Positions 19,745 through 26,736 of a stretch of DNA of 34,355 nt are shown one piece after another (position 1 is the stretch's first letter; each line of letters begins with the position of its first letter). This DNA comes from an uncultured bacterium (GTDB lineage Bacteria > Patescibacteriota > Minisyncoccia > Moranbacterales > UBA2206): assembly GCA_903937035.1 (NCBI GenBank), contig CAIZXS010000024.1, forward strand, positions 1-34,355, read 5' to 3'. The notes under the pieces are model-generated. The model did no database searches and was not told where the DNA came from. It was given only the letters and a program-made list of their open reading frames with translations. The translations under genes were made by a program, and so were the position numbers.

Positions 19745-19773
19745 TTGACAAAGTCATTAGCTTAGATTAATAT
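19745..19773 (+). promoter_or_regulatory. Promoter of the SPFH-like/receiver unit
   Basis: TTGACA (19745-19750), 17 bp, TAATAT (19768-19773). Predicted start near 19780. Confidence 0.7.
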
Positions 19774-19821: not shown

Positions 19822-20526
19822 ATGGAAAAGGGGCAAAGACGAATCGCATTATTAGGGGCAGTGGTGGCTATCATAGTAGCTTTGGTAGCGGTTAGTTTTG
19901 AGGGACTTTTTAGAATGGTCGATGAAAAGGAGATTGTCGGGATTCAGTTTCCCTTTAAGCGGGGCATGACTTGGCACACCAGCCCAGGGTTGAAACTGAG
20001 ACTTTTTGGTAAAGTCGTTCGATACGACAAGGAGTTCAGTTTTAGCATAAACAGCATGGACGCTGGACATATCAAAATTGTTGCCTCGTCTTATGTTAAC
20101 ATGCCATGCGATGAAGTTAATTTGAATAAATTGGCCCATCAGCTTGGCAGTCAGTATGCGATTCAACTCAAACTGTTGCAACCCGTATTTGACCGTGCGA
20201 TTTTTCGGAGCAGTATTCTTGTGGCAAAAATCAAGAGCGATGCGGACAGGCAAGCGCAACTGAGGTTCTTTATTGAAGATCAAGCTGCGATTGGGATATA
20301 TAAGACGACGGCCAAAAATGAAGTAATCCGCGATCCAGCCACAGGTGAGGAAAAAAACGTGATGGCTGTTGAAGTTGTTGCTGATCCTCAAAATCCCAGT
20401 GACTATTTGCGGGCAGAGGTTTCGCCGCTGCTGGATTATGGATTGAAAGTTCATGATCTCATTATCCATGAACTTGTTTTTTATAGGAAAAACGCGACAT
20501 ATTTCGGAAACTCGAATAGGTATTAA
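19822..20526 (+). CDS. SPFH/band 7-like membrane protein
   Basis: 234 residues from ATG 19822, which follows a GGGGGAGGGGGAG purine run; an upstream TTG at 19783 lacks any SD. An N-terminal membrane segment (about 7-26, ALLGAVVAIIVALVAVSF) is followed by a region with the SPFH pattern: EKEIVGIQFPFKRGM, SPGLKLRLFGKVVRYD, a central helix-rich part, and the closing YGLKVHDLIIHELVF typical of prohibitin-like folds. It would form oligomers at the membrane and may organise partners. The stop codon overlaps the start region of the receiver-like gene, suggesting coupled translation and a functional link. Confidence 0.6.
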   Translation: MEKGQRRIALLGAVVAIIVALVAVSFEGLFRMVDEKEIVGIQFPFKRGMTWHTSPGLKLRLFGKVVRYDKEFSFSINSMDAGHIKIVASSYVNMPCDEVNLNKLAHQLGSQYAIQLKLLQPVFDRAIFRSSILVAKIKSDADRQAQLRFFIEDQAAIGIYKTTAKNEVIRDPATGEEKNVMAVEVVADPQNPSDYLRAEVSPLLDYGLKVHDLIIHELVFYRKNATYFGNSNRY

Positions 20527-20540
20527 TGGGAGGGAAAGGA

Positions 20541-20990
20541 ATGAGAGAATTCAGGCTGCTTATTGTTGAGGGAATCTCACAGCTTGGGGAGTCGACGGCT
20601 CAAAAAATCAAAAGTGTTTTTCCTGATTGTCAAATCGATATTGTGGATAGTGCCGAGCGGGCTTCTCAAGCCGTGAAGAATATCCGCTATGATGTTGTCA
20701 TGAGTTTTTTCGATTTCGGCAAAGAAGATCGTAATGGAGTGGATGTCCTTTTTGCTGTCAAAAAGCAACATCCCAAAATTGGGACGATTCTCATTTTGCT
20801 TTATTTCAAGGGTGGGATGGTTATTGATCGGACAAAACTGGTGATGGCGGTGGATTATATCCGTCAACAAGCCATTGCGGACGAATGGGTCAAAAGGGTA
20901 TTTGGCAGCTTGCTGGAAGAAAAAAAGTTTGTCCAAGGGAACTTCTTTCATTTAGCGATGCACCACGGACAAGTAAATAGAGCGAAATAA
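20541..20990 (+). CDS. Degenerate response-regulator receiver domain protein (1)
   Basis: 149 residues from ATG 20541, preceded by GGGAGGGAAAGGA. An in-frame ATG at 20526 overlaps the previous stop and has no SD of its own. The secondary-structure pattern of a CheY-like domain is visible: FRLLIVEG (4-11), RYDVVMSFFDF (49-59), GTILILLYF. The acidic pair is reduced to E10, the phospho-acceptor position falls on F56/F57 with D58 one or two residues off, and the conserved Lys-Pro is missing. It is therefore unlikely to be phosphorylated normally. No output domain. Co-transcribed with the SPFH-like gene. Confidence 0.7.
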   Translation: MREFRLLIVEGISQLGESTAQKIKSVFPDCQIDIVDSAERASQAVKNIRYDVVMSFFDFGKEDRNGVDVLFAVKKQHPKIGTILILLYFKGGMVIDRTKLVMAVDYIRQQAIADEWVKRVFGSLLEEKKFVQGNFFHLAMHHGQVNRAK

Positions 20991-20995
20991 TTTTG

Positions 20996-21030
20996 AAGGG
21001 AAAAAGGTGAACACACCTCGTTCCCTTTTT
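20996..21030 (+). terminator. Terminator of the SPFH-like/receiver unit
   Basis: AAGGGAA (20996-21002) pairs with TTCCCTT (21021-21027), inner GGTG/CACC, 4-nt loop, T-run. Confidence 0.85.
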
Positions 21031-21044
21031 TCTTTGGGAAAAAT

Positions 21045-21072
21045 TTGCATATTTTTGCATTGGGCGTATGAT
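21045..21072 (+). promoter_or_regulatory. Promoter upstream of the Cys-rich cluster
   Basis: TTGCAT (21045-21050), 16 bp, TATGAT (21067-21072). Predicted start near 21079, about 200 nt before the first Cys-rich gene. Confidence 0.5.
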
Positions 21073-21078
21073 GAAAAT

Positions 21079-21212
21079 ATCAAGGAGTAGGGTTAGTTAA
21101 AATTAAATAGGTTTTCCCATAAGGATTGTTTTTATTGAGTATGAAGAATGGATATTTTGGGATATTTTTGCAAAAAACCAACTTAAGACAATAGTCTCGG
21201 GTTGGTTTTTTG
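21079..21212 (+). ncRNA. Candidate leader RNA/attenuator ahead of the Cys-rich cluster
   Basis: From the predicted start the RNA runs about 90 nt without an ORF. It ends in a perfect 12-bp stem (21171-21182 with 21201-21212) with an inner AGAC/GTCT hairpin and a T-run. It could be a stand-alone small RNA or an attenuator controlling the three genes that start at 21282. Confidence 0.5.
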
Positions 21213-21281
21213 TGTTGGTCCTTTAAAAAAGAAAGTAGCGTTCGCAAGGTTTAAATTGATCCATTAAAATTGGGGGTGAAA

Positions 21282-21566
21282 ATGGAATGCAAGCGTTGCA
21301 TTAGACACAGGGTTGATAAATGTGATGACTTTCCCAAGGAATCGATTCCCAGCGGGAAACGATGTTTGTATGGCAATAAAACTCAACATGATGCGCAAGT
21401 AGGAATGGTGTTGCCGGTATGTGCGTCAGAACCGATTGTGTTTCGCAAGCATCTCGGCTTGGCACTTTGGCTGTTTGTGGCAAAAAAGCTGGCAGGGATT
21501 TTTTCCGGGATGCAAAGAGTGTTTCCTGTCAAAGCCGAGAGTTTGGAACAAGGGGAAGGGGGTTGA
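21282..21566 (+). CDS. Small Cys-rich protein Z1 (94 aa)
   Basis: ATG 21282 follows a GGGGGTGA run. The N-terminus is zinc-finger-like: MECKRCIRHRVDKC with C3, C6, H8 and C14, then C28. The middle is hydrophobic (about 54-70, GLALWLFVAKKLAGIF) and could be a membrane or amphipathic helix. The family is not recognised. It is the first of three closely spaced Cys-rich genes; Z2 begins three bases after its stop. Its Cys spacing (C-x2-C-x7-C-x13-C) is related to, but looser than, that of Z2-Z4. Confidence 0.6.
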   Translation: MECKRCIRHRVDKCDDFPKESIPSGKRCLYGNKTQHDAQVGMVLPVCASEPIVFRKHLGLALWLFVAKKLAGIFSGMQRVFPVKAESLEQGEGG

Positions 21567-21569
21567 GCT

Positions 21570-21791
21570 GTGAAAATAGACTGTTGTCCGCTGTGTGAGG
21601 TCGGTGAAAATTGCCGAAAGGTGAGAGAGGTTAGTTTTTGGCGTAGCTGTGGCAATGCACATCGCCCAATTAACTTCCAGCTTTGTGTCTGTCCTGGGCA
21701 GGTCAAGGGTTCATCTTCTTTCGGGTTGTCATTTGGCGGTTCGCAAAACAGGGGTATCATTGAAGTCCAAATGTGGGGACTTGTTCGTTAG
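21570..21791 (+). CDS. Small Cys-rich protein Z2 (73 aa)
   Basis: GTG start at 21570, three bases after Z1 stops, with AAGGGGAAGGGGG upstream. Residues 5-42 contain C6-x2-C9-x5-C15-x11-C27-x3-H31-x7-C39-x-C41-P. This is the same order of metal-ligand candidates as Z3 and Z4, with His in place of the fifth Cys. The C-terminal part is Gly/Ser-rich and variable. It would be a small zinc-binding protein; the partner is unknown. Confidence 0.6.
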   Translation: MKIDCCPLCEVGENCRKVREVSFWRSCGNAHRPINFQLCVCPGQVKGSSSFGLSFGGSQNRGIIEVQMWGLVR

Positions 21792-21800
21792 TGGGGAGAT

Positions 21801-21825
21801 GGGGAAAGAGCAGCGACTCTTCCCC
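21801..21825 (+). other. Intercistronic hairpin between Z2 and Z3
   Basis: GGGGAAAGAG (21801-21810) pairs with CTCTTCCCC (21817-21825) around a 6-nt loop. There is no T-run, so it is more likely an RNA-processing or stabilising stem than a terminator. Confidence 0.5.
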
Positions 21826-21860
21826 CCCCCTAATCCAAAAGCACCAAAAGGAGGTGTGCG

Positions 21861-22052
21861 ATGGCAAGAAAAGATGATGTTTGCAAACATTGCAAAAAAA
21901 GAGTCAGTTGCGTCAAAGACGGAATTTCCATGGGGCCATGTTTTGATTGTCAGGCGAAACAGTGCGAATCTGCGCTTGCTCAATGCTATTGCAGCCCAAA
22001 AGATATTCCCTTGCAAGATCTCATGAGCTTTGCTCGTGTGAGATATGTATAG
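21861..22052 (+). CDS. Small Cys-rich protein Z3 (63 aa)
   Basis: Strong AAAGGAGGTG SD (21849-21857) before ATG 21861. Eight cysteines: C8, C11, C17, C27, C30, C35, C42, C44 (C-x2-C-x5-C-x9-C-x2-C-x4-C-x6-C-x-C-x-P). Z4 at 24711 has the same length and nearly the same spacing, so the two look like paralogs 2.7 kb apart. Two zinc sites of four Cys each would fit. No known family is recognised. Confidence 0.7.
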   Translation: MARKDDVCKHCKKRVSCVKDGISMGPCFDCQAKQCESALAQCYCSPKDIPLQDLMSFARVRYV

Positions 22053-22054
22053 GC

Positions 22055-22090
22055 GCGGAATGGGGGAAGAGAATGTTCTTTCCCCGTTCC
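22055..22090 (+). terminator. GC-rich hairpin after Z3
   Basis: GGAATGGGGGAAGAG pairs with CTTTCCCCGTTCC around AATGTT. It is followed by an AT-rich stretch without a clean T-run. Confidence 0.55.
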
Positions 22091-22156
22091 ATTATTACTT
22101 AGTATTTTAGATGCTACTATATATAGAAGGGGAAAGAGTTGAACATTTTTTAGTTT

Positions 22157-22180
22157 AGGACCATCCTGGGTCCTTTTTTT
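22157..22180 (+). terminator. Terminator of the Z1-Z3 cluster
   Basis: AGGACC (22157-22162) pairs with GGTCCT (22169-22174), followed by seven Ts. Confidence 0.8.
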
Positions 22181-22206
22181 AATCAAAAAATACAAATACA
22201 AATATC

Positions 22207-22235
22207 TTGACGATATTTCTCTAGTAATGTAAGAT
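22207..22235 (+). promoter_or_regulatory. Promoter of the TasA-SipW operon
   Basis: TTGACG (22207-22212), 17 bp, TAAGAT (22230-22235). Predicted start near 22242; AT-rich leader of about 95 nt without SD. Confidence 0.65.
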
Positions 22236-22336
22236 TAGAAGGTTGTGAAAAAAATATTGTAACCCGTCAAAATATTTTTTTTGATCAATAAAAACGGGAA
22301 ATAAAAAAATAATTTAATTAATTTTAAAAAAAACAT

Positions 22337-22960
22337 ATGAACAAAAAAGTTCTCTATTCCCTGGGTACAATCGGCATTATTACGGGCCTGACTATCAGTG
22401 GGACGTATGCCTATTTTACCGCCAATCAAAAAACAGGCACAAATCGATTCATGGCCGGAACATTAGACCTTGATGTTTCCGCTAACGGAAATAAGCTGGA
22501 GCCATTTGTAATTGAGAATATTGGTAGTGACGGTAATGTCGGTGGAACAAAAACTTGGACGATAAAAAACACGGGTTCTTTACCTGGTCGGCTGTTTATT
22601 GGATTGCAAGATGTAGTTAATCTCGAAAATGGTTGCAATGACCAGGAAAAAGCGGTTGATCCTACTTGTGATAATCCAGAAAAGCAAGGTGATTTGGGCA
22701 AAATTGTGACTTTGAATATTGCCCTGGATGGCGTTGATAAGGTTAGCTCGACTTTGGCGCCTAATCAAGGGCAAAAGATTGGCTCTGATTGGGAGGCTTT
22801 GTCGGCCATTATCTTACAGCCGAATGAGCAAAAGACGCTGACTGCTTATTGGGCGGCTGATGCCAGTTCCTATGGAAATGAAATCCAAAGCGATGAAACG
22901 CAATTCAATATCAACTTTCGCTTGAATCAACTAATTGCCGGCGCCCCTTCGAGCAACTAA
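22337..22960 (+). CDS. TasA/camelysin-like matrix protein with SipW-type signal peptide
   Basis: 207 residues. The N-terminus has the SipW-cognate signature: hydrophobic SLGTIGIITGLTISG, then GTYAYFTANQ (22-31) and FMAGTLDLDV (38-47). The rest is beta-rich, as in the TasA/CalY (peptidase M73-like) fold, with NTGSLPGRLFIGLQDV in the middle. In Bacillus such proteins are cleaved by SipW and form extracellular matrix fibres (family knowledge). Here the next gene is a SipW-type peptidase, which strongly supports the assignment. First gene of a three-gene operon. Confidence 0.85.
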   Translation: MNKKVLYSLGTIGIITGLTISGTYAYFTANQKTGTNRFMAGTLDLDVSANGNKLEPFVIENIGSDGNVGGTKTWTIKNTGSLPGRLFIGLQDVVNLENGCNDQEKAVDPTCDNPEKQGDLGKIVTLNIALDGVDKVSSTLAPNQGQKIGSDWEALSAIILQPNEQKTLTAYWAADASSYGNEIQSDETQFNINFRLNQLIAGAPSSN

Positions 22961-23022
22961 CAAAATTAACAATGGAACGGGTCGAAGCGTCATAGCTAGC
23001 ACCTTTTCAAGATAAGGTTAAG

Positions 23023-23526
23023 ATGATGATCATTAAAGTAATTTTTGATTTGCTAAAATCAGTGCTGACGATTTGCACTTTGCTTCTAGCTGTGTGGTTT
23101 CTCAACGCGCATTTTAATTTTTTTGGGAATTATCAACCGTTTCTCGTTCAGTCCGGATCGATGGAGCCGACAATTATGATTGGGGATATCGTTCTTGTTC
23201 AAGATAGGCCTGCCTATGCAATCAATGACATCGTAACTTTCAGAAATGAGACTGGTCGAGTGATTACGCATCGCATCGTGACGATGGAGCAAAAACAAGG
23301 CGGGACCTATGCAACCAAGGGGGATGCTAATCAAGCGGAGGATGATAGTAATATTTCAGAGGAACAGATTGTGGGAAAAGTCGTTTTTACTTTGCCCAAG
23401 CTTGGATTTGCAATTTCTTTTGCCAAGTCTCGCTGGGGGTTGGTTCTACTTTTGATTGTTCCCGCAATCTTTTTCATTCTAGACGAATTGCTTAAGTTGA
23501 AAAGAAATGCTAACGCTGTGGATTAG
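23023..23526 (+). CDS. sipW: Signal peptidase I, SipW/ER type
   Basis: 167 residues with N- and C-terminal membrane segments (about 10-28 and 137-156). The catalytic serine lies in QSGSMEPTI (S46), and the second catalytic residue is a histidine in VITHRIV (H83), in place of the Lys of ordinary bacterial LepB. This Ser/His arrangement is the ER/archaeal/SipW type. KGDANQAED (99-107) is the conserved aspartate region. A weak AAGG lies upstream; ATG 23026 is an alternative start. It most likely processes the flanking TasA-like proteins. Its stop overlaps the next gene by 20 bp. Confidence 0.92.
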   Translation: MMIIKVIFDLLKSVLTICTLLLAVWFLNAHFNFFGNYQPFLVQSGSMEPTIMIGDIVLVQDRPAYAINDIVTFRNETGRVITHRIVTMEQKQGGTYATKGDANQAEDDSNISEEQIVGKVVFTLPKLGFAISFAKSRWGLVLLLIVPAIFFILDELLKLKRNANAVD

Positions 23527-24085
23527 GAGGATTGCCATCCTTTCAATATTGTTATATCTATTCTTTAGTCGGACTGATTATACTGATGCTGATATGTTTG
23601 CCGAAAGAGTGGTCGCGCATAATACTTTTTCTGGCCTGACACTTAGTTTTTCAATCGGAAGTTCAGCGAACAATAATCCAACCACTAAACTTTTTCAGTT
23701 GTCTGATCTGCAATCAGGTGGTTTTGATCTTGGAGCACTGAGAGTCAATGTGGGAGCGGGGAGCGAATTCAATTATCAACTAAGAGCGATTAGGCTGGGT
23801 GGCGACGAGGCTTTTTGTGATTCTTTGCAACTGAAGGTTACGGATCGCAATTTGGTCGAACTTTACGCGGGTACTTTGGCAAATCTTTCTCTGTCGGCCG
23901 TCTCTACTGATGTTGCTTTGAGAGAACTTGTTTTTATCGTGAGCCTGGATGAGCAAAATGAAGCACTCAAAAACAAAGACTGCGAATTCAACTTAAGTTT
24001 CAAAACCTATCGGGATAATCCTGATGAAACGGGGGGTATTAATGCTTGGCAATTGATCCACAACTCAATTTCAAGTGGTTCCTGA
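23507..24085 (+). CDS. Secreted TasA/TapA-like protein, third gene of the SipW operon
   Basis: 192 residues starting inside the end of sipW (20-bp overlap, translational coupling). An N-terminal hydrophobic helix, IRRIAILSILLYLFF, is followed by DADMFAERVVAHNTFSGLTLSF. The last part mirrors the 'N-F-AGTLDL' motif of TasA-like proteins, so it is probably a second SipW substrate. The remainder is beta-rich with two cysteines that could pair (CDSLQL and DCEFNL). The gene order fibre protein - SipW - accessory protein resembles tasA-sipW-tapA of Bacillus in reverse, although sequence similarity to TapA cannot be claimed. Confidence 0.7.
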   Translation: MLTLWIRRIAILSILLYLFFSRTDYTDADMFAERVVAHNTFSGLTLSFSIGSSANNNPTTKLFQLSDLQSGGFDLGALRVNVGAGSEFNYQLRAIRLGGDEAFCDSLQLKVTDRNLVELYAGTLANLSLSAVSTDVALRELVFIVSLDEQNEALKNKDCEFNLSFKTYRDNPDETGGINAWQLIHNSISSGS

Positions 24086-24203
24086 TAGTATTTCTCTGTT
24101 TGACCAAAAAAGACTGGATTTCCTATCTTCCCCCAAATTTTTTTGTGGAAATATGAATTATGACAAAAAGGGACAGCGGATGCCCGAAAGGATGCCCAAA
24201 AGA

Positions 24204-24232
24204 TTGACAAAGTGGTTCTTTTAAGCTAGAAT
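24204..24232 (+). promoter_or_regulatory. Promoter of the second receiver/Cys-rich unit
   Basis: TTGACA (24204-24209), 17 bp, TAGAAT (24227-24232). Predicted start near 24239; the leader ends in AAGGAGAAAGGAGAG. Confidence 0.8.
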
Positions 24233-24280
24233 TTTGGATTATGGAAAGAACATTGAAAATAAGGAGAAAGGAGAGAGGAC

Positions 24281-24742
24281 ATGCGAGATTTTAGTTGTTT
24301 GGTAGTCGGGCGCGAGTCTAATTCATTTGGAATAACAATTGCCCAAATGATTCGACGAAAATTTCCGCGAAGGTATGTCCGTTTCGTGGACAATCCAGAC
24401 TCGGCGCGCAATAGTTTGGACATATTCCAATATCAGATTGTCGCTTGCGATTTTTAACTCAACGCAAATTATACTGGGGTAGAATTTCTTTTGGCGGTGA
24501 AAAATCACCAGTCAAAAACAAAGACTATTTTGCTGGTGAAAAATTTTTGCGAGGATTGTCCAAAAATCAAATTGGACACCCTGGAATTGCTCAGGGCGGT
24601 TGATTGCATTTTGAGAGTTCCCGCTACCATCGAGCGTGTCGTGGTGACCGTTGGTGGATTTTTGCAAGCACAAGATGTTCGCTATAATTTCAATCAAAAG
24701 GAGGGCGCACATGACAGAGTCGGTAGACTGCGATGGATGTAA
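24281..24742 (+). pseudogene. Receiver-like gene interrupted by an in-frame stop
   Basis: ATG 24281 has an excellent SD (AAGGAGAAAGGAGAG). The first 58 codons encode a receiver-like start (FSCLVVGRESNSFGI) up to IVACDF, where D57 lies at the expected phospho-acceptor position. The next codon is TAA (24455-24457). The same frame then stays open to 24742 and continues the receiver pattern (NYTGVEFLLAVK, KTILLVKNF, VDCILRVPATIERVV). So one nonsense codon splits an otherwise continuous domain of about 150 residues. Either the gene is a recent pseudogene, or a 58-aa fragment is made, or the stop is read through. Its 3' end overlaps the Z4 start. Confidence 0.75.
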
Positions 24743-24902
24743 GGAGTTAAGGGGGTGCTTTGATGGAGAAGAGATCCTTCTCTGTCGTCGTTGTGCCAAA
24801 CCCAAGGCAAATTGTCAGCATAGAGGGCGTTCGTATTGCGGATGCTTCCCGCAACCGTACCCGCTTGTCGGGGATGATCACCTTGAGGTCGGGCATGCTT
24901 AG
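24711..24902 (+). CDS. Small Cys-rich protein Z4 (63 aa)
   Basis: ATG 24711 is chosen because AAAAGGAGGG (24696-24705) precedes it; the frame is open further upstream without an SD. Eight cysteines: C7, C10, C16, C25, C28, C35, C43, C45 (C-x2-C-x5-C-x8-C-x2-C-x6-C-x7-C-x-C), followed by FPQPYP. This is almost the same as Z3, which is also 63 aa. It overlaps the end of the broken receiver frame and lies 47 bp before the next receiver, so all three are one transcription unit. A small double-zinc protein is the best guess. Confidence 0.7.
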   Translation: MTESVDCDGCKELRGCFDGEEILLCRRCAKPKANCQHRGRSYCGCFPQPYPLVGDDHLEVGHA

Positions 24903-24949
24903 CCTGGTGGCCAGTTACTAATTGTTTCCCATAGAGAAAGGAGGGATAG

Positions 24950-25303
24950 ATGCGGATATTAGTAATCGAGGGAAGCGAGTCCTCGCTAAAATTGATGAAA
25001 GTATTTCTGTTAAGATGGAATATCTCCGGTGAATTTTTTTCGAATTCGCAAGATGCACTGAAATTTTTTGAGCCAGGTCGATTTGACCTGCTCATTACGA
25101 ATTTCGGGAAGAATGGCGAGGGGCCAGCTTTGATTCGAAAAATCAAAGAAATCCAGCCAGGGATAAAGATTATTTGCCTGACTGGCTACAATGCTCGGGA
25201 AGTCAGGGAGGCTTGCTTAGCTGCCGGTTGTGACAGTTTCCTGAGTAAACCGTTTGGTCTGGATGAATTGGGGTCAGCAATCGAGAGATTGTCTGAAGAA
25301 TGA
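24950..25303 (+). CDS. Receiver-domain protein with Asp-to-Asn at the phosphorylation site (2)
   Basis: 117 residues, exactly one CheY-like domain, no output domain. SD GAAAGGAGGGATAG precedes ATG 24950. The fold is well kept: MRILVIEGSES (1-11), FDLLITNF (45-52), ICLTGYNA (75-82) with T78, and FLSKPFGLDEL (97-107) with the conserved K100-P101. The phospho-acceptor Asp is replaced by N51 and one acidic-pocket residue is lost (IEG). It therefore cannot be phosphorylated in the standard way and probably works as a constitutive binding module. Last gene before a strong terminator. Confidence 0.85.
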   Translation: MRILVIEGSESSLKLMKVFLLRWNISGEFFSNSQDALKFFEPGRFDLLITNFGKNGEGPALIRKIKEIQPGIKIICLTGYNAREVREACLAAGCDSFLSKPFGLDELGSAIERLSEE

Positions 25304-25336
25304 TCAGCACTTCAGGCATATGCTCTGTTCTATGTG

Positions 25337-25372
25337 GCGAGGGAGGGACAATGGTTCCCTGCCTCGCTTTTA
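25337..25372 (+). terminator. Terminator of the second receiver/Cys-rich unit
   Basis: 12-bp stem GCGAGGGAGGGA (25337-25348) with TCCCTGCCTCGC (25356-25367), 7-nt loop, then TTTTAATTTT. Confidence 0.9.
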
Positions 25373-25512: not shown

Positions 25513-25599
25513 ATGGATGGGTTTTTACTAAAAATATATAGCGCTAAGCAAAACGTGCTGACGAGTCGAGAAATCGCTCTAATTACCGGTGATATGTGA
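25513..25599 (+). pseudogene. Detached N-terminus of AbiEi antitoxin
   Basis: ATG 25513 opens 28 codons, including the segment NVLTSREIALITGD, which is the first helix-turn-helix part of AbiEi family antitoxins, and then hits TGA (25597-25599). The next frame continues with VKRGDLLRLRRGIFA. In intact relatives about 15 residues separate these two pieces. A small out-of-frame deletion therefore appears to have removed the DNA-recognition part of the winged helix. Confidence 0.65.
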
Positions 25600-26054
25600 A
25601 GCGTGGAGATCTTTTGCGTCTGCGCAGGGGGATTTTTGCCAGGAACAAGGATTTTGACGAAAAGGAATGCGCGGTGCGAATCTATACGCCGGCCTACATC
25701 AGCTTGGAAACCGTCCTTGCTCAGGAAGGAGTCATTTTTCAATACTACTCCTCAATTTTTGCGGTGAGTTATCTTTCGCGCGATATCGCCTATGGGGAAA
25801 ATAAGATAACGTACAAAAAAATCAAAGACGGAATCCTTTTGAATCAGGCGGGGCTGGTGGACAAGGGGACATATTTTGAAGCGACTAAAGAGCGGGCATT
25901 TTTGGATCGGCTATATTTGAGCGGCGATTATTATTTCGACAACTTGCGCAACATCGATTGGCAGGCCTGTTTTGAACTGGTGAAGATCTACGAGAATAAA
26001 GCGCTGGAAAATAAACTTAAAAATTATTATAAAAATTATGCTCAACAAAAATAG
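25596..26054 (+). CDS. AbiEi-type antitoxin, N-terminally truncated
   Basis: 152 residues readable from GTG 25596: KRGDLLRLRRGIFAR is the wing of the winged helix, followed by the AbiEi C-terminal domain (YTPAYISLETVL, GVIFQYYSSIFAVSYLS, TKERAFLDRLYL). It would neutralise the AbiEii toxin encoded next and repress the operon. The HTH part is in another frame upstream (25513-25599). No SD precedes the GTG, so antitoxin expression is doubtful or depends on the upstream short ORF. It overlaps the toxin start by 17 bp. Confidence 0.75.
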   Translation: MKRGDLLRLRRGIFARNKDFDEKECAVRIYTPAYISLETVLAQEGVIFQYYSSIFAVSYLSRDIAYGENKITYKKIKDGILLNQAGLVDKGTYFEATKERAFLDRLYLSGDYYFDNLRNIDWQACFELVKIYENKALENKLKNYYKNYAQQK

Positions 26055-26736
26055 ACACAAATTAGTGATGACGCAGATCATTAAAGATATCTATTCTGAT
26101 GTTTCGATTTCATCGCTTTTGGGATTCAAGGGCGGGACCGCGGCGTTCATCTTTTTCGCGCTTCCCAGATTCTCCGTCGATCTTGATTTTGATCTTTTGG
26201 AGGACAGTGAAAAAAACAGGGAGTTGGTTTTTGGAAAAATAGAAAAAATTCTTTTGAAATATGGCGAGATAAAGGACAGTCAGCAGGAATTTGCCACGCT
26301 CTTTTTCGCGCTTTCCTATGGCGCCCATGAGCATCAGATTAAAGTGGAAATTAACACAAGAAAGACCGGTGCGCACTATGAGTTGAAAAGCTATTTTGGC
26401 ATCGGCATGTTGGTTGTGGAAAAGGCTTCGATGTTGGCGGGAAAATTAATGGCGCTCACGGGAAGAAAAGTTTTTGCGGCGCGTGACCTCTTTGATACGC
26501 ATTTCTTTTTGCAACAAAGATGGGAGATTGAAAAAGACGTCCTTGAGGCTTACGGCGAAAAATCAACAAAAGCCTATCTTGGCAGATGCATTACCTATGT
26601 GGAAAAGTTGCCGGAGAACAAATTACTTGGGGGCTTGGGCGAATTGATTTCGGAAAAGGAAAAAACTTTCGTGCGCAATCAACTGAAGCGAGAAGTCCTG
26701 TTTTTGCTCAGGGCTTATCAGGATATTGAAAAATAA
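26038..26736 (+). CDS. AbiEii/AbiGii-family nucleotidyltransferase toxin
   Basis: 232 residues. The nucleotidyltransferase core motif is intact: GFKGGTAAFIFF (24-35), LPRFSVDLDFDLL (37-49) with the metal-binding Asp pair, then a helical C-terminal domain with AGKLMALTGRKVFAARDLFD. AbiEii toxins are GTP-binding nucleotidyltransferases that inhibit growth, and in some systems give phage abortive infection (family knowledge; type IV toxin-antitoxin). Here the toxin frame is whole whereas the antitoxin looks damaged. It starts within the antitoxin gene. Confidence 0.88.
   Translation: MLNKNRHKLVMTQIIKDIYSDVSISSLLGFKGGTAAFIFFALPRFSVDLDFDLLEDSEKNRELVFGKIEKILLKYGEIKDSQQEFATLFFALSYGAHEHQIKVEINTRKTGAHYELKSYFGIGMLVVEKASMLAGKLMALTGRKVFAARDLFDTHFFLQQRWEIEKDVLEAYGEKSTKAYLGRCITYVEKLPENKLLGGLGELISEKEKTFVRNQLKREVLFLLRAYQDIEK

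Follow-up and report, generated by a model that had tools for sequence, protein, structure and literature searches.

A probable lineage-specific, partly decayed expansion of stand-alone receivers around a tasA-sipW operon in a Moranbacterales genome

The locus lies on contig 24 of a 1.22 Mb genome (98.7% complete, 26 contigs; the genomes of relatives span 0.6-1.4 Mb), sizes in keeping with Patescibacteria. The window, i.e. the whole stretch of 34,355 nucleotides that was analysed, contains an interval with an SPFH-like gene, three receiver-like genes (R1, R2 and R3), four small Cys-rich ORFs (Z1 to Z4) and a tasA-sipW operon, all of them on the forward strand. They fall into four units with promoter-like or terminator-like ends, in the order SPFH-R1, Z1-Z2-Z3, tasA-sipW-second gene and R2-Z4-R3. 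The first unit is preceded by a sigma-70-type promoter (19745-19773, TTGACA-17-TAATAT) and a terminator-like hairpin is located 3' of R1 (20996-21035, z -3.2); a strong hairpin marks the end of the Z1-Z2-Z3 unit (22057-22090, z -4.5), a promoter-like signal is found in front of the tasA operon (22207-22235), and the last unit runs from a near-consensus promoter (24204-24232, TTGACA-17-TAGAAT, 11/12) to a terminator-like hairpin 3' of R3 (25336-25368, z -3.9). The first and the last unit have promoters that both contain TTGACAAAGT and that resemble those of two related receiver loci described below (C4 and G003), two such matches within the window alone not being beyond chance (14/100 shuffles). 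Only short chance matches were obtained as DNA direct repeats between the two R...Z halves, and an Rfam search gave no match. The layout agrees with the original prediction in having three receiver-like genes, the matrix-fibre operon in their middle and, within the interval, neither a histidine kinase nor an output domain; six histidine-kinase ATPase domains are encoded elsewhere in the genome. Concerning the flanks, a beta-propeller gene upstream of the locus, sought for a synteny check, has no homologue in the family, and an AbiEii-type nucleotidyltransferase toxin gene lies at 25596-26736 (Pfam 1.6e-16), overlapped from upstream by an ORF that is probably the partner of the toxin.

The SPFH-like gene (19822-20526, 234 aa, coding-like composition) stands directly upstream of R1, with a gap of 11 bp, consistent with the predicted coupling of both genes. 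It is a genuine SPFH/band-7 homologue, as proposed, but a truncated one. Although no Pfam match was obtained, comparison with a full-length homologue in the class gives an E value of 1e-27 and with phage proteins named SPFH one of 5e-12; band-7 proteins are matched both in crAss-like phages and in large phages. Full-length proteins are matched in 13 of the 384 class genomes, the own genome counted, and none were found in other genomes of its family. The homologues have 400-475 aa, and an alignment with nine full-length ones shows that the ORF stops where their coiled coil starts and that one loop is shortened, so the coiled-coil half is missing. The short protein may be a reduced form that still functions. 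None of the nine loci of full-length homologues that were read has receivers nearby.

R1 (20538-20990) is a stand-alone pseudo-receiver of coding-like composition, with Phe at the acceptor position and the Thr/Ser and Lys positions lost; only one of the five catalytic residues, an acidic one, is kept. Pfam yields a receiver match at E=0.04 only, and R1 is recognised as a receiver through its homologues: as a query against its own genome it retrieves R2 (E=1e-8, 30% identity) and the two receivers at C4:9119-9860, over a range of 1e-8 to 4e-5, and the family profile including R1 matches CheY/NtrC structures. The predicted structure of R1 alone has a pLDDT of 49, too low for a fold search. No relatives of R1 were found among viral contigs, and in the other six genomes searched of the same genus R1, the SPFH-like gene and Z4 have no relatives above chance level.

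R2 (24281-24742) is homologous to R1 and has an Asp at the acceptor position (motif IVACDF), followed one codon later by an in-frame TAA (24455-24457). Receiver homology goes on for ~95 codons past the TAA in the same frame, and the coding score is coding-like after the stop and borderline before it; apart from the acceptor Asp, all scorable catalytic residues are gone. An error in the assembly or variation between strains could account for the stop. Recoding of the TAA was dropped as a candidate, no sign of an altered code having appeared among what was seen, short of a systematic survey. In the receiver tree, whose deeper nodes are weakly supported, R1 and R2 form a clade with a support of 0.99 beside the C4 and G003 receivers; this identifies them as sister paralogues, next to the glmS-recO receivers of their own genome and genus.

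R3 (24950-25303) is a stand-alone receiver with a clear Pfam match (E=6e-16) and coding-like composition, in which the acceptor is Asn and three of the five catalytic residues (Thr, Lys and an acidic one) are kept, while Gly stands in place of one of the two acidic residues that bind metal. Its best matches, with up to 37% identity, are catalytically complete recO-linked receivers of a sister genus in the family, with which it groups in the tree (support 0.905). Hence, the absence of a standard phosphorylation site, predicted for all three receivers, applies to R1 and R3, which lack the acceptor Asp and are pseudo-receivers in that sense, but R2 does have the Asp, in a broken gene. A regulated R3, switched when its Asn is deamidated to Asp or otherwise modified, and served by a trans-acting kinase, would fit the retained Thr, Lys and acidic residue as well as the six kinase ATPase domains of the genome, and receivers are described in which an acceptor Asn reverts to Asp via deamidation (PMC4395418); the Gly at a metal-binding position and the lack of a known partner weigh against it, and we give this idea only a very slim chance.

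The C4 pair of the own genome is flanked by glmS and recO, and comprises a receiver with five of the five catalytic residues (acceptor Asp) and another with one of five (acceptor Glu); at the glmS-recO site of G003, from the same genus, there is one receiver with every catalytic residue present. Among 30 recO loci of the family about one third carry stand-alone receivers at most 1.5 kb away. A complete and a degenerate receiver stand together beside recO in C4 (D, E), G028 (D, G) and G015 (D, V), with G029, G030 and G414 as less complete cases, and degenerate receivers occur alone beside recO in G007 and G031. Loss of the catalytic site is therefore recurrent in this receiver group and not specific to the window. 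The acceptor Asp is absent in 7/35 scorable receivers of the stretches read, which is not a genome-wide rate because these stretches were picked around receivers; for reference, Asp-less receivers amount to ~4% across all life, and pseudo-receivers to ~6% in bacteria (PMC12632262). Relatives with an intact Asp, anticipated by the original prediction as evidence against a special system if accompanied by ordinary kinases, thus exist for both the R1/R2 and the R3 lineages; they are also stand-alone, no kinase being shown alongside. An alignment of the C4 and G003 receivers retrieves from named genomes just general receivers of other phyla.

Some further observations concern this receiver group. 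Tandem stand-alone recO receivers recur across the family (L009:9119-9860; L230, L232, L233, L235, L237 and L042), and the recO clusters contain a further broken receiver, a fragment without its N-terminal half beside recO in G029 (L231:110-289). A receiver with a Gly acceptor (IFSGIIMP / IFTGIIMP), found in the own genome (L017:5972-6541, minus strand) and in the same genus (L069), is probably a conserved pseudo-receiver.

Four Cys-rich proteins had been proposed, of which Z3 and Z4 are solid, Z1 is plausible and Z2 doubtful. Z1 (21282-21566, 5 Cys) is coding-like and has no demonstrated homology to Z2, Z3 or Z4. Z2 (21570-21791, GTG start, 7 Cys) has a composition that is not coding-like and falls in the wrong-frame range; it is perhaps a decayed relative of Z4. 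Z3 (21861-22052) and its paralogue Z4 (24711-24902, overlapping the end of the R2 frame) each have 63 aa, 8 Cys and a strong ribosome site. The composition of Z4 is also in the wrong-frame range, its support coming from the ribosome site and the likeness to Z3. Among the 49 small ORFs that have a strong ribosome site in 166 kb of the genome, both stand out with 12.7% Cys, the next having 6.8%, and they also exceed all 135 such ORFs in 427 kb of relatives. The eight-Cys spacings of the pair, 3-6-10-3-5-7-2 and 3-6-9-3-7-8-2, place all eight in register, a match with P of about 1e-5 under random placement and 2e-4 with the span fixed. Beyond the Cys the likeness is not significant (P 0.26, Cys fixed), and since the other residues add little, the kinship of Z3 and Z4 rests on Cys spacing. 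Both proteins probably fold around metal bound by their eight cysteines. The predicted structure of Z4 with Z3 reaches a pLDDT of 54, too low for a fold search. Neither has a match in Pfam, PHROG or PDB. A profile search of the genome with Z3 and Z4 found no further members elsewhere; another Cys-rich small ORF of the genome, of 84 aa and 9 Cys (L017:1935-2189), was not among the relatives retrieved.

The original prediction went on to a dedicated phosphorylation-independent system in which pseudo-receivers bind zinc microproteins (R1-Z3, and R2-Z4 or R3-Z4), with the SPFH protein as anchor and a link to the matrix fibre. We regard such a system as improbable. What speaks for it is only an apparent duplication of an R...Z unit, within this locus alone: there are R1/R2 paralogues and Z3/Z4 paralogues, one each per side of the tasA operon, and the reading frames of R2 and Z4 overlap in a unit that also includes R3. 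However, the proposed pairing was not found anywhere else, and the grounds for rejection named in the original prediction itself largely apply. The 55 relatives, searched with one Z query, gave chance-level matches only; the 130 other genomes of the order gave none, as seen with a two-row profile of short sequences of low sensitivity, and in the own genome no Z was found beyond the locus. Furthermore, the recO-linked receiver clusters of relatives are without a Z-like ORF, the SPFH homologues lack receivers nearby, R2 is broken and the SPFH protein truncated. A scaffold or sensor role through contacts with zinc proteins is thus not supported.

The operon in the middle consists of a TasA/CalY-type matrix protein with a SipW-type signal peptide (22337-22960; TIGR04088 24.4 bits, cut-off 19), a SipW-type signal peptidase I (23023-23526; TIGR02228 95.9, cut-off 51.85) and a second exported protein (23507-24085), whose homologue in a relative likewise follows sipW. 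This gene order recurs in relatives, mostly without receivers, and hence the operon has no link to the receiver cluster except position. A receiver-like gene is near sipW in one of seven loci of relatives (G007); this degenerate receiver adjoins recO, which explains its presence there. As a side observation, 3/7 of these sipW loci encode between the tasA-like gene and sipW a conserved protein of 50-63 aa with a CxxC...SHGxCPEC pattern (L039:3204-3395, L044:5327-5506 and L045:7285-7437, all on the minus strand; 47-61% identity to the first), which may be a small zinc-ribbon protein that partners the matrix operon. The likeness of Z3 and Z4 to these ribbons is weak (probability 4%).

Taken together, we favour as reasonably probable that tandem stand-alone receivers have expanded specifically in this lineage, and in part decayed, around a tasA-sipW operon that is conserved and independent of them. 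Another account, plain gene decay that has left the receivers, the Z ORFs and the SPFH stub without function, would explain the interrupted R2, the truncated SPFH gene, the poor coding scores of Z2 and Z4 and the absence of R1, SPFH and Z4 from the other six searched genomes of the genus, but is unlikely in view of the coding-like composition of SPFH, R1, Z1 and R3, the strong promoters and terminators, and the fact that Z3 and Z4 have strong ribosome sites and conserve the spacing of their eight Cys. Within the favoured expansion itself, selection may be maintaining R1, R3, Z3 and Z4 instead of leaving them to decay, because the composition of R1 is coding-like and strong promoters remain.

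R1 and R3 cannot work as ordinary phospho-receivers, which is the part of the predicted phosphorylation-independent role that stands, so any function of theirs probably does not depend on Asp phosphorylation, which is also the case in known pseudo-receivers. If made, R1 and R3 would fold like receivers and act as pseudo-receivers, their output being set by the amount made and by their binding partners; they would bind to, or compete with, an intact receiver (that of C4, for example) or the kinase of such a receiver. The switching of bacterial pseudo-receivers still awaits an explanation (PMC12632262), and this family offers a natural series, with tandem recO receivers that are complete in some genomes and degenerate or both in others, plus the all-degenerate cluster of one species, so that the loss of phosphorylation, and its replacement, can be compared directly. 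The receiver-zinc idea would matter only if binding were shown. Its boldest form, a real lineage-restricted signalling pair of duplicated pseudo-receiver and eight-cysteine microprotein, in which the metal-bound microprotein replaces phosphorylation as receiver input and controls the surrounded matrix-fibre operon, seems to us very improbable.

Most parts of the locus belong to known kinds. The SPFH-like protein shares with SPFH/band-7 proteins, including those of crAss-like phages, a membrane-anchored SPFH domain (~26-35% identity), but has only this half, whereas the C-terminal coiled-coil half, expected for oligomer formation, and one loop are missing. The operon resembles tasA-sipW biofilm matrix operons in its SipW-type signal peptide, archaeal-type signal peptidase I and second exported protein after sipW, although its proteins are very divergent and the four-Cys ribbon gene that three relatives have between tasA and sipW is absent. 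Z3 and Z4 are like bacterial zinc-ribbon microproteins (CxxC...CxxC) in their ~60 aa and ribbon-like spacing of Cys pairs, and differ from them in having eight Cys and a C-terminal CxC, with no family or profile match. Finally, R1 and R3 resemble the receiver homologues without the acceptor Asp and other catalytic residues described as ALR or PsR, for which Asn and Gly are known acceptor substitutions, some of which are stand-alone and which make up several percent of all receivers (PMC4395418, PMC12632262); unlike these in general, the present ones, known from sequence alone, form tandem clusters, some of them beside complete paralogues, in a small-genome lineage.
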